A stretch of DNA of 64,000 nt from Gemmatimonadales bacterium (GTDB lineage Bacteria > Gemmatimonadota > Gemmatimonadetes > Longimicrobiales > Gaopeijiaceae). The notes under the pieces are model-generated. The model ran no database searches, had not been told where the DNA came from, and saw nothing but the letters and a program-made list of their open reading frames with translations. The stretch spans positions 1 through 64,000 of the forward strand of contig REED01000025.1 of NCBI GenBank assembly GCA_007695225.1. Reading direction: 5' to 3'. Position numbers and translations under genes: made by a program. Within the stretch, counting starts at the first letter, position 1. Each line of letters begins with the position of its first letter. Of this stretch, positions 13,251 to 17,922 are shown piece by piece.

Positions 13251-13829
13251 TCAACCGAGCGTCTTCACCACCAGCTTGCTCACCGCCTTCAGGGTCTCGA
13301 AGACACCGGTCCCGTCAATGGCGACCCCCTCAAAATCCGGCACGCCTCCGGGGTTCAACTCCGCCCGCAATTCCTCCACGGACAGGATCCGATCCAGGTC
13401 CCGCTTGTTGTACTGGATCGCAAAGGGGACGGTGGACAGGTCGTACCCGTAGGATTCCAGGTTCTCGTAGAGGTTGTGCATGGCCTCGATGTTGGCCTCG
13501 GCACGGTCCACCTGGGAGTCGGCGACGAAGATGATGCCATCCACGCCCTTCAGGATGAGCTTCCTGGAGGCGTTGTAGTACACCTGACCCGGAACGGTGT
13601 AGAGATGGAACCGGGTCTTGAACCCCCGGATGTTCCCCAGGTCCACCGGGAGAAAGTCGAAGAATAGGGTCCGATCCGTCTCGGTCGCCAGGGATATCAT
13701 CTTGCCCCGGGTATCGGGATCAATCCGTGAGAAGACATACTCCAGATTCGAGGTCTTCCCTCCCAGCCCAGGCCCGTAGTAGACCACCTTGCAGTTGATC
13801 TCCCGGGAAGCGTAGTTGATCATGGACAT
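13251..13829 (-). CDS. mglA: MglA-like small Ras-type GTPase
   Basis: 192 aa. MglA-type GTPases control cell polarity and gliding or pilus reversals in Myxococcus and occur in many non-gliding phyla. The P-loop GPGLGGKT is at 19-26, the switch II region TVPGQ at 78-82 with the characteristic [14 protein letters not shown] after it, and the base-specificity motif NKRD at 141-144. The N-terminal [18 protein letters not shown] matches the family exactly. It starts 5 bases after the roadblock-domain gene, which probably encodes its GTPase-activating partner MglB. Confidence 0.94.
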
Positions 13830-14689: not shown

Positions 14690-15286
14690 TCAGCGTTCCC
14701 GACGGCCCGCCAGGGCCTCTGCCAGTGTGGACCCATCCACGTATTCCAGATCGCTTCCAACCGGAATACCCCGAGCCAGCCGGGTTACCCGCACCCCCAG
14801 CGGACGGAGTTCCGTCTCAAGGTAGACTGCGGTGGCCTCCCCCTCAACGGAGGGGTTGGTGGCGAGGATCACTTCATGGACTCCATCCTCCCCCTCTCCC
14901 CGGACCCGCTGGAGGAGGGTCGCCACGTTCAGGTCCTCCGGCCCCACCCCATCCAGGGGCGAGAGACGACCCCCCAAAACATGGAAAAGACCCCGGTATT
15001 GCCCCGTTCGGTCGATGGAGAGGACCTCGAAGGGAGTCTCCACCACGCAGAGGGTCCCCCGATCCCGGGAGGCATCAGCGCAGATCTCGCACACATCCAG
15101 TTCCGTGAAGTTGCCGCACCGACCACAGGGTCGAACCCGCTCCGCCATGGCGCGAATCGCTCCGGCCAGCCGAAACGCCTCCTCCCGGGGCACCCGGATG
15201 AGGTGAAAAGCCAGGCGCGTGGCCGTCCGGGGGCCGATGCCAGGGAGACGGGAGAGTTCCCGCGTCACCTCATCGATGACGGACAT
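14690..15286 (-). CDS. recR: Recombination mediator RecR
   Basis: 198 aa. RecR helps RecO load RecA at gaps. Visible parts: helix-hairpin-helix (LPGIGPRTATRLAFHL), a C4 zinc finger with Cys at 54, 57, 66 and 69, and a Toprim domain (LCVVETPFEVLSID, EVILATNPSVEGEATAVYL). The length matches the family. It follows ybaB by 66 bases in the common dnaX-ybaB-recR order. Confidence 0.96.
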   Translation of the reverse strand: MSVIDEVTRELSRLPGIGPRTATRLAFHLIRVPREEAFRLAGAIRAMAERVRPCGRCGNFTELDVCEICADASRDRGTLCVVETPFEVLSIDRTGQYRGLFHVLGGRLSPLDGVGPEDLNVATLLQRVRGEGEDGVHEVILATNPSVEGEATAVYLETELRPLGVRVTRLARGIPVGSDLEYVDGSTLAEALAGRRER

Positions 15287-15352
15287 GCTGACCCCATGGA
15301 AGCGACGCGAACGTCGAGGAAGGGGACGGTACTGCCGCCGAGGCCCACTGGG

Positions 15353-15679
15353 TCAGAAGATCCCCGGAAGCTTCATGGGAAAGGGAAGCCCTCCGGCCAC
15401 CTTCTTCATCTCCGCCTCGTAGCTCTCCCGGGCCTTCTTCTGGGACTCGCCAACGGCGGCCATGACCAGGTCCTCCAACATCTCCACATCCCCGGGATCC
15501 ACCACCGAGGGATCGATGGAGATCCGCTTCACCTGGCCCTTCCCGTCCACCGTTACCGTGACCATCCCGCCACCCGAGGAGGCGGTGACCTCCTGGCGGT
15601 CCAGGTTTTCCTGGATCTCGGTCATGCGGGACTGCATCTGCTGCCCCATCTGTAGAATCTGCTGCATGTTCATCTGCAC
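15353..15679 (-). CDS. YbaB/EbfC family nucleoid-associated protein
   Basis: 108 aa DNA-binding protein of the YbaB/EbfC family, which forms tweezer-like dimers. The N-terminal helix is Met/Gln-rich (MNMQQILQMGQQMQSRM), then a beta-sheet with VTVTVDGKGQVKRISIDPSVV and a C-terminal helix LEDLVMAAVGESQKKARE. It lies between dnaX and recR, as in many bacteria. Confidence 0.95.
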   Translation of the reverse strand: MQMNMQQILQMGQQMQSRMTEIQENLDRQEVTASSGGGMVTVTVDGKGQVKRISIDPSVVDPGDVEMLEDLVMAAVGESQKKARESYEAEMKKVAGGLPFPMKLPGIF

Positions 15680-15770: not shown

Positions 15771-17669
15771 TCAATCCATGATTTCCAGGTCGAGTTCTTC
15801 TACCGCCGCCCGGAGACCGGGTTCCTGCTCCAGGAGGTCCCGGAGGCGTCCCTGCTGAACTTCCCCTGTGGTGATCCGAACCTCCGGATCCTCCTTCCTC
15901 TCCTCCGCCTCCTCGAAGCGAAGGGCAACCGCCGCCTCCAGGTTCCGGGCCAGGGCCTTCTCCAACTGGGTAGCGGTGCTCCGGTCCTGGAGCCGCTCCA
16001 GGCCAGGACCCGGGGGGACCGCCACCACCAATGTCCCGGACTCCACTCTCGTTCCAGACGCCATGAGAAAGGGGGACAGCCCCTGGGGAATCCCGGCTCC
16101 GGACTTCAGGAGCGCTCGCCAGGCCACCTGGGGATCCCCAAACCGGCGGGACGACGGGGGCGGCACCTCCGGTGGGGCCTCCGGTGTAGGCGGGCCAGCC
16201 GTTGCCGTTGGTGCGGCAGGTCCGGCCGTTGGTACGGCAGGTCCGGCCGTTGGTACGGCAGGTCCGGCCGTTGGTGCAGCAGGTCCGGGGGCTCCAGTAG
16301 ACGGAGAACCGGAGGAAGGCGGCTGAGGCGAGCCGGAGGAGGACGGTTCCGGGGGTGATCCAGGGCCGGGCTGGGGACTGGGCCGGAAACCGGACTGGGG
16401 TGCGACCCGGGGCTCAGGATGGAAGCCGGGGTGGGGACCGGCCTGGGGATCAGGTCGCGGCGCCGACAGCCCCGCCCCCCCGCCTTCTCCTCCCCCTCTC
16501 CCCAACTCCGCAGGGAGCGGGCCCTCTCCACCCAGGGCATGGAGGAGTTCCTCCACGGCCAACGTCCGATCCAGATAGGAGAAGCGGAGAAGGAGGAGTT
16601 CCAGGAGGACCCGGGGCTGGTTCGTCCGGCGGAGGCTTCCCGTCGTCTCCAGCTCCGCCGCCATGCCCAACATGCGGATGAGGTCGGCGGGCTCGAAGCG
16701 GTCGGCCCGAGTCGCCCAGTCGGCCCGCCGTTCCTCGGGGAGATCTGCCCCCTCACCCCCCACCCGGAGGCGGAGGAGGGTCCGGAGGGCCTCCAGGAGG
16801 CCATGATAGAACTCCACCAGGTCGTATCCCTGGTCCAGGAGCGCCTCCACCAGGCCAAAAATCCCGGCCCGCTCCCCTCCTGCCAGAAGGTCGAAGAGTT
16901 CCAGGTAGCGCTCTTCTTCCACCACACCAAGGACCCGGCGTACCGCTTCGGCATCCACCCGCCCGTCGGAGAGAGCCAGCACCTGGTCCGTGATGGAGAG
17001 GGCATCCCTCATCCCACCGTCGGCCTTTCGTGCGATGATCCGGAGCGCCTCCTCGGAGGCCTCCGAGTCCTCCCATCCCAGCACCTCCCGGAGGCGTTCC
17101 ACGATATCCCCCACCCCCACCCGCCGGAAATCGAACCGTTGGCAGCGGGAAAGGATGGGCGCGGCCGTCTGCTCGATCTTCTGGGGCTCGGTGGTGGCGA
17201 AGATGAAGATCACCCGGGGAGGAGGCTCTTCCAGGATCTTCAGGAGGGCGTTCCACGCCTCCCGGGTGAGCATGTGGGCCTCATCCACGATGTAGATCTT
17301 GTAGCGGGCCTCTTCGGAGGGGGCGTACATGGCCCGCTCCCGAAGCTGACGGGCATCGTCCACTCCCCGGTTGGTGGCGGCGTCGATCTCCACCACATCC
17401 AGGGAGGTGGTGCCACTCCAGATCCGGGTGCAGTCGTCACACTGCCCACAGGGCTCCCCGGAGTCCTGCCGGTCCGGACAGTTGAGGGCCATGGCCAGGA
17501 CCCGGGCCAGCGTGGTCTTGCCCACTCCGCGGGGACCGCAGAAGAGGTAGGCGTGGCCCACCCGGTCGGTGGACACGGCCCGACGCAACGTCTCGGAGAC
17601 GTGCTCCTGGGTCGCCACCTCGGAGAACCGCCGGGGGCGGTACTTGCGGGCTAGAGCGGTGTGGGACAA
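15771..17669 (-). CDS. dnaX: DNA polymerase III subunit gamma/tau
   Basis: 632 aa clamp-loader ATPase, counted from a TTG start at 17669. The family-typical opening ALARKYRPRRF begins at residue 5. Walker A GPRGVGKT is at 45-52, zinc-binding Cys near 64, 74, 77 and 80, and Walker B VDEAH near 128-132; then the collar domain, a Pro/Ala/Gly-rich linker (about 390-515) and a basic/acidic C-terminal tau-like domain. The only upstream in-frame ATG (17783) lies inside the SRP RNA, so TTG is preferred although no strong ribosome binding site precedes it. A 21-base tandem repeat encodes part of the linker. Confidence 0.93.
   Translation of the reverse strand: MSHTALARKYRPRRFSEVATQEHVSETLRRAVSTDRVGHAYLFCGPRGVGKTTLARVLAMALNCPDRQDSGEPCGQCDDCTRIWSGTTSLDVVEIDAATNRGVDDARQLRERAMYAPSEEARYKIYIVDEAHMLTREAWNALLKILEEPPPRVIFIFATTEPQKIEQTAAPILSRCQRFDFRRVGVGDIVERLREVLGWEDSEASEEALRIIARKADGGMRDALSITDQVLALSDGRVDAEAVRRVLGVVEEERYLELFDLLAGGERAGIFGLVEALLDQGYDLVEFYHGLLEALRTLLRLRVGGEGADLPEERRADWATRADRFEPADLIRMLGMAAELETTGSLRRTNQPRVLLELLLLRFSYLDRTLAVEELLHALGGEGPLPAELGRGGGEGGGAGLSAPRPDPQAGPHPGFHPEPRVAPQSGFRPSPQPGPGSPPEPSSSGSPQPPSSGSPSTGAPGPAAPTAGPAVPTAGPAVPTAGPAAPTATAGPPTPEAPPEVPPPSSRRFGDPQVAWRALLKSGAGIPQGLSPFLMASGTRVESGTLVVAVPPGPGLERLQDRSTATQLEKALARNLEAAVALRFEEAEERKEDPEVRITTGEVQQGRLRDLLEQEPGLRAAVEELDLEIMD
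16201..16281 (-). repeat. 21-bp tandem repeat inside dnaX
   Basis: About 3.9 copies of a 21-base unit (on the plus strand starting GGTCCGGCCGTTGG) at 16201-16281; the two middle copies, 16219-16239 and 16240-16260, are identical. The unit encodes seven residues of the type G-P-A-V-P-T-A in the DnaX linker, so copy-number change would keep the frame. It is not CRISPR-like, since there are no spacers. Confidence 0.85.
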
Positions 17670-17749: not shown

Positions 17750-17769
17750 AAAAAAATGCGCCCCAGGTG
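17750..17769 (-). terminator. U-tract end of the SRP RNA
   Basis: The 3' arm of the SRP RNA terminal stem is followed on the minus strand by seven T residues (17756-17750). Together they look like a rho-independent terminator for the RNA, 80 bases before the proposed dnaX start. Confidence 0.65.
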
Positions 17770-17856
17770 GACCGCAGCAACATTCACCACACTTACCGCT
17801 GCTACCGGCGAGGTCCTGACGGAGTTCGTGGGATCCTGTCCTGCGCACCTGGGGCA
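17757..17856 (-). ncRNA. ffs: Signal recognition particle RNA (4.5S-like)
   Basis: About 100 nt upstream of dnaX. The conserved SRP core is visible on the minus strand: GAACTCCGTCAGG, then a short hairpin, then AGCAGCGGTAAG, matching the helix 8 region that binds Ffh. The ends pair perfectly over 10 bp (GCCCCAGGTG at 17855-17846 with CACCTGGGGC at 17769-17760), and further internal pairing (CGCAG with CTGCG) is seen. The gene ends in a seven-T run. The apical hairpin reads ACC-TCGCC-GGT in place of the common GGAA tetraloop, which is unusual. Adjacency to dnaX is common for this RNA. Confidence 0.85.
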
Positions 17857-17922
17857 CAGTTGGAAGCTACCGGGCCGGGGGCTCACCGTCAACCTGATTG
17901 GAAGGCCGTTCATGGAGCGGGC

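Follow-up and report, generated by a model that had tools for sequence, protein, structure and literature searches.

A lineage-wide five-base tip on the small SRP RNA of Gemmatimonadota

The window analysed here (the whole stretch of 64,000 nucleotides of contig REED01000025.1 from a Gemmatimonadales bacterium) contains on its minus strand the gene for a small bacterial SRP RNA (ffs) with the five-base apical loop UCGCC. A GNRA apical tetraloop is the usual tip of SRP RNAs, and the GGAA tetraloop is regarded as a near-universal and functionally critical element of them. The window RNA is a lineage-wide and apparently new variant of a known RNA. As read from a loop census and a protein tree, Gemmatimonadota have switched repeatedly between four- and five-base SRP RNA tips with the receptor contact site kept. 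An earlier note on this DNA had described an SRP RNA whose apical loop is unusual, with an intact conserved core and a hairpin ACC-TCGCC-GGT between the core strands, leaving the gene strand open; all three descriptions are borne out. The match to the family is full-length, GUCAGG and AGCAGC are read exactly, and the tip ACC-UCGCC-GGU spans 17804–17814, with the five-base UCGCC standing where a four-base GNRA loop (GGAA) would be. The coordinates of the features are collected in Table 1.

Table 1. Features of the ffs locus and its surroundings in the window
Feature	Position	Strand	Basis
Small bacterial SRP RNA gene (ffs)	17758..17857	minus	RF00169 match, fold z, relatives' alignment
GUCAGG, 5' strand of symmetric loop (Ffh M-domain site)	17815..17820	minus	sequence; invariant alignment columns
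AGCAGC, 3' strand of symmetric loop	17798..17803	minus	sequence; invariant alignment columns
Apical pentaloop UCGCC, closed by ACC/GGU	17807..17811	minus	sequence; same loop in 38 contigs
Closing stem ACC/GGU	17812-17814/17804-17806	minus	sequence
Run of 7 U directly after hairpin, probable 3' end	17750..17756	minus	read by eye
Likely promoter (TTGACG, 17 nt, TAGCTT)	17864..17892	minus	read by eye
dnaX, first gene downstream of ffs; probable TTG start at 17669	15771..17669	minus	Pfam DNA_pol3_delta2, DNA_pol3_gamma3
ybaB and recR, after dnaX	14690..15679	minus	Pfam YbaB_DNA_bd, RecR domains

In the covariance search that the earlier note had proposed as a check, the RF00169 match at 17758–17854 (minus strand) covers model positions 1–97 of 97 with an E value of 2.5e-5; its 35.4 bits fall under the 40 bits of the Rfam gathering score, which is a threshold of curation and no biological trait. 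The loop is not the cause of the low score, because a relative with the identical UCGCC loop (L005) reaches 42.9 bits and passes; the missed cut-off is thus no bar to membership of the class, being a curation threshold passed by orthologs. The strand from 17857 to 17758 folds as one hairpin at -52.9 kcal/mol (z = -3.7), a folding energy reached by one of 200 shuffles, and the fold together with the RF00169 alignment defines a single hairpin of about 100 nt without an Alu domain. Compensatory changes were found at 15 of 31 pairs in an alignment of 36 RNAs of relatives, among which both core strands are invariant. No second RF00169 match was present anywhere in the genome (4.18 Mb, 98% complete, 229 contigs), so that a canonical SRP RNA elsewhere, which had been named as one finding that would overturn the case, did not appear. 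FtsY (327.8 bits) and Ffh are encoded in the same genome. The RNA was filed as a small bacterial SRP RNA because the core motif, the architecture, the single copy and the partners are all present. It is genuine and the only SRP RNA detected in this bacterium, and it is probably functional.

The gene lies directly upstream of dnaX-ybaB-recR. The candidate promoter ends 6 nt ahead of the first paired base of the hairpin, and its T-rich block is weakly conserved among relatives; at least three T in a row follow the stem in 50 of 85 relatives. A promoter and terminator scan, with a stricter rule than the reading by eye, listed nothing at the locus. Downstream of recR, a 192-aa open frame (13251–13829, minus strand) resembles by motif a small Ras/MglA-type GTPase; it gave no Pfam match at 1e-5.

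The exact loop in its SRP context was scanned for in a public genome collection (one genome per species, 84,980 species). The pattern GTCAGGNCC-TCGCC-GGNAGCAGC was present in 38 further contigs, each of which has Gemmatimonadota, Gemmatimonadetes, Gemmatimonadales or Longimicrobiales in its title, and because of this recurrence the loop is neither chance nor error. RF00169 detected an SRP RNA in 39 of 58 relatives, 17 of these above the cut-off, and a lineage covariance model built from 36 SRP RNAs, the window's included, detected one in 262 of 297 Gemmatimonadota genomes, with one copy in nearly all; the Rfam small-SRP model under-calls this phylum. Comparison of the same locus in relatives, as the earlier note had advised, extended the observation beyond one genome: the unusual loop is common to most of the class. 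The outgroup class (f11) and two deep families (f8 and f10) have GGAA. Only pentaloops were found among the loops read in the window's own order (f1, f2 and f3) and in f6 and f7, and both sizes occur within f4 and within f5. The lineage model and the loop patterns revealed no SRP RNA in G014, G161 (g15), G042 and G069 or in family f9 (G193, G195, G200, G217, G367 and G368); the large SRP RNA model RF01854 gave a single weak match (E = 0.93) in genomes without a match. These genomes possibly contain divergent or miniature RNAs, or have assembly gaps at the site. A UCGC tetraloop match in f9 (G200) and a match in G017 were rejected as their flanks are not SRP-like (L206 and L225).

The loop census comprised 133 distinct SRP RNA sequences with the extended core, a restriction made because raw pattern tallies hold chance matches, as judged from reversed-pattern controls. 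Pentaloops accounted for 106 of the 133 and tetraloops for 27; these counts are not independent events, the loci being related by descent, and UCGCC is over-represented, most of its 36 sequences having come from the search for that loop. Every pentaloop (106/106) fits [CUG][CU]G[CAU][AC]. Position 3 is G in all 106, position 4 is C or A in 105, the first base is never A, and the first and last bases are C-A in 51, U-C in 41, G-A in 12 and U-A in two. The tetraloops were GGAA (10), GAAA (8), UAAC (3), UAGC (2), GAGA (2), GGCA (1) and GCAC (1). Two side observations concern the rest of the hairpin. In five f5 loci (L117, L119, L122, L123 and L222) and one of f1 (L024) the core reads GCCAGG/AGCAAC, a C-A replacing the U-G pair next to the symmetric loop, and this variant occurs in RNAs with a GAAA tetraloop and in RNAs with a pentaloop. 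In L209 (genome G198) the 5' arm contains GGTAGCAGCG, a second 3'-strand core motif shortly before the true core, possibly the result of a local duplication or of a slip in the assembly.

Loop size was mapped onto a maximum-likelihood tree built from the FtsY and Ffh proteins of 58 genomes (755 columns). Parsimony gave 11 size changes, at least nine of them on well supported branches. Within genus g59 of f4, UCGCC and UUGCC pentaloops stand beside UAAC and UAGC tetraloops, and in a neighbouring f4 clade a GUGAA pentaloop stands beside GGAA and GGCA tetraloops; the end bases therefore outlast the change of size, an inner base being gained or lost. Covariation of U first with C last is suggestive only: the coupling showed two switches the same way, none opposite and one undecided (p = 0.5), these being few independent events.

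In f3, a sister family within the window's own order (genomes of 3–7.5 Mb), no convincing SRP RNA was found by RF00169, RF01854 or the lineage model; FtsY and Ffh are present in these genomes. The sequence GGGUCAGG[G/U]CC-CCGCA-GG[C/A]AGCAGCCC occurs in 11 f3 genomes between tRNA-Glu or tRNA-Met and tRNA-Val (L185–L195; candidate core at position 1501 of the sense strand in every locus). The candidate is about 80 nt long and consists of a 48-nt domain-IV hairpin, with an A-rich asymmetric loop and a CCGCA pentaloop, followed by a second GC-rich hairpin. Compensatory changes are seen in both hairpins: seven of 26 pairs are changed on both sides, which none of 500 shuffles reached, and 98.7% of cells are paired. 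Rfam searches at the site with E up to 1 returned nothing beyond tRNA-related and chance matches. The candidate is likely to be a miniature SRP RNA that is released by processing of a tRNA transcript and whose function we infer from the motif only.

The protein partners offer a comparison for the loop. In the early complex of Escherichia coli the G domain of FtsY rests on the tetraloop (PMC4737761), the contacting basic patch consists of K399, R402, K405 and K406, and a UUCG loop serves as a non-binding control for FtsY (PMC11404819); the role in receiving FtsY that the earlier note had ascribed to GGAA agrees with both sources. The K399 number was placed on E. coli FtsY by counting from the DTAGR motif and verified against the alignment. 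The four positions read K, R, R and R in the FtsY of this genome; the K399 position is lysine in 59 of 59 FtsY sequences from tetraloop and pentaloop genomes, and 57 of the 59 have a basic residue at position 402. The Ffh M-domain RNA motif is intact in this genome (SRRSRIARGSGRSVAEVNRL) and kept among relatives, 20 sequences missed by the strict pattern being small variants such as GAG or GCG for GSG. At the FtsY patch and in the Ffh motif, the parts compared here, the suggested compensating change in ftsY or ffh was therefore not found; this speaks for an equivalent loop surface rather than a rewired contact.

U-turn tetranucleotides have G, U or protonated C as their first base, and it is by a sugar/Hoogsteen pair of U and C that UNAC loops mimic GNRA loops (PMC5311481); the GNRA fold is also known from pentaloops in which one base is looped out (PMC12550061). 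On this basis the UCGCC tip is best explained as a GNRA/UNAC-like U-turn plus one extra, probably looped-out base, which would serve FtsY as the tetraloop does; we consider this reading probable. U1 and C5, replacing G and A, would form a UNAC-type sugar-edge/Hoogsteen pair, C2 and G3 would occupy the N and R places of the GNRA-type turn, and C4 would be the extra base. Such a loop would present an unchanged backbone surface to FtsY when the early targeting complex forms; the GTPases would then shift, as they do in E. coli, to the distal hairpin end. The observed loop rule is what the U-turn first-base rule plus a tolerated fifth base would predict; at the level of sequence only, the U-turn criteria (G, U or C first, a purine third and a suitable last base) fit all 106 pentaloops. 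C-A, the commonest combination of end bases, could mimic G-A only with its C protonated or in a different geometry. The fold of the loop in three dimensions, the identity of the looped-out base and normal receptor kinetics are what we infer from these sequences.

The loop might instead matter little here, docking proceeding through the distal RNA site, Ffh–FtsY or membrane contacts while the tip drifts. Its size and sequence do vary often across the class, but the G at position 3 in every pentaloop, the pyrimidine at position 2, the avoidance of A at the first position and the A or C at the last are not what drift would leave, and the lysine at the K399 position is invariant, although it may be kept for reasons other than loop contact; free drift seems quite unlikely. 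We give a similarly low probability to the idea that the extra base touches FtsY or Ffh in a new and specific way, RNA and receptor having co-evolved. Looped-out bases of known GNRA-like pentaloops often touch protein (PMC12550061), and the near-restriction of position 4 to C or A would suit such a contact; against it, no position of the known FtsY RNA patch divides tetraloop from pentaloop genomes by eye, and loop size flips inside one genus. A decayed or misassembled copy, with the true one in a gap, would accord with the score under the RF00169 threshold and the 229 contigs of the assembly, but it is barely credible, given that dozens of independent assemblies share its loop, stem and core and that nearly all genomes have a single copy.

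The window RNA, with its probable U-turn tip, shares with E. coli 4.5S RNA (RF00169) the single hairpin of about 100 nt, the GUCAGG/AGCAGC loop, a CC/GG closing stem and the partners Ffh and FtsY; it differs in having UCGCC for GGAA and in scoring under the family cut-off. Like UNAC (UMAC) tetraloops, which are GNRA mimics (PMC5311481, PMC12550061), its loop has U first and C last, and UAAC and UAGC are found in sister species of those with UCGCC; it is one base longer with a pyrimidine at position 2, the likeness being one of sequence. GNRA-like pentaloops such as phage boxB and Cas6-bound crRNA (PMC12550061) also have five bases, a purine third, a variable extra base and a protein-binding tip, but their first and last bases are G-A rather than U-C, and the looped-out position proposed here is a guess. 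Physcomitrella chloroplast SRP RNA is another natural SRP RNA with a non-tetraloop tip; its loop of 10 nt lowers cpSRP54 affinity (PMC5115805), whereas the loop described here is longer by a single base and its motif is conserved class-wide. Loop variants of archaeal SRP RNA helix 8 are likewise lineage-specific but remain GRRA tetraloops (PMC2905702). A literature search returned no description of a pentaloop or of Gemmatimonadota SRP RNA; comprehensive SRP RNA surveys lay outside it, and an earlier mention is possible.

A bolder claim, which we hold to be doubtful, is that the tetraloop checkpoint has been rebuilt class-wide as a pentaloop whose extra base alters the reception of FtsY, with GNRA, UNAC, GNR(N)A-like and UNR(N)C-like tips forming a series on one receptor. 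The repeated exchange of the GGAA tetraloop for pentaloops, with the FtsY lysine kept, amounts to a natural mutagenesis series for the question of whether FtsY recognises the bases of the tip or the backbone of a U-turn.
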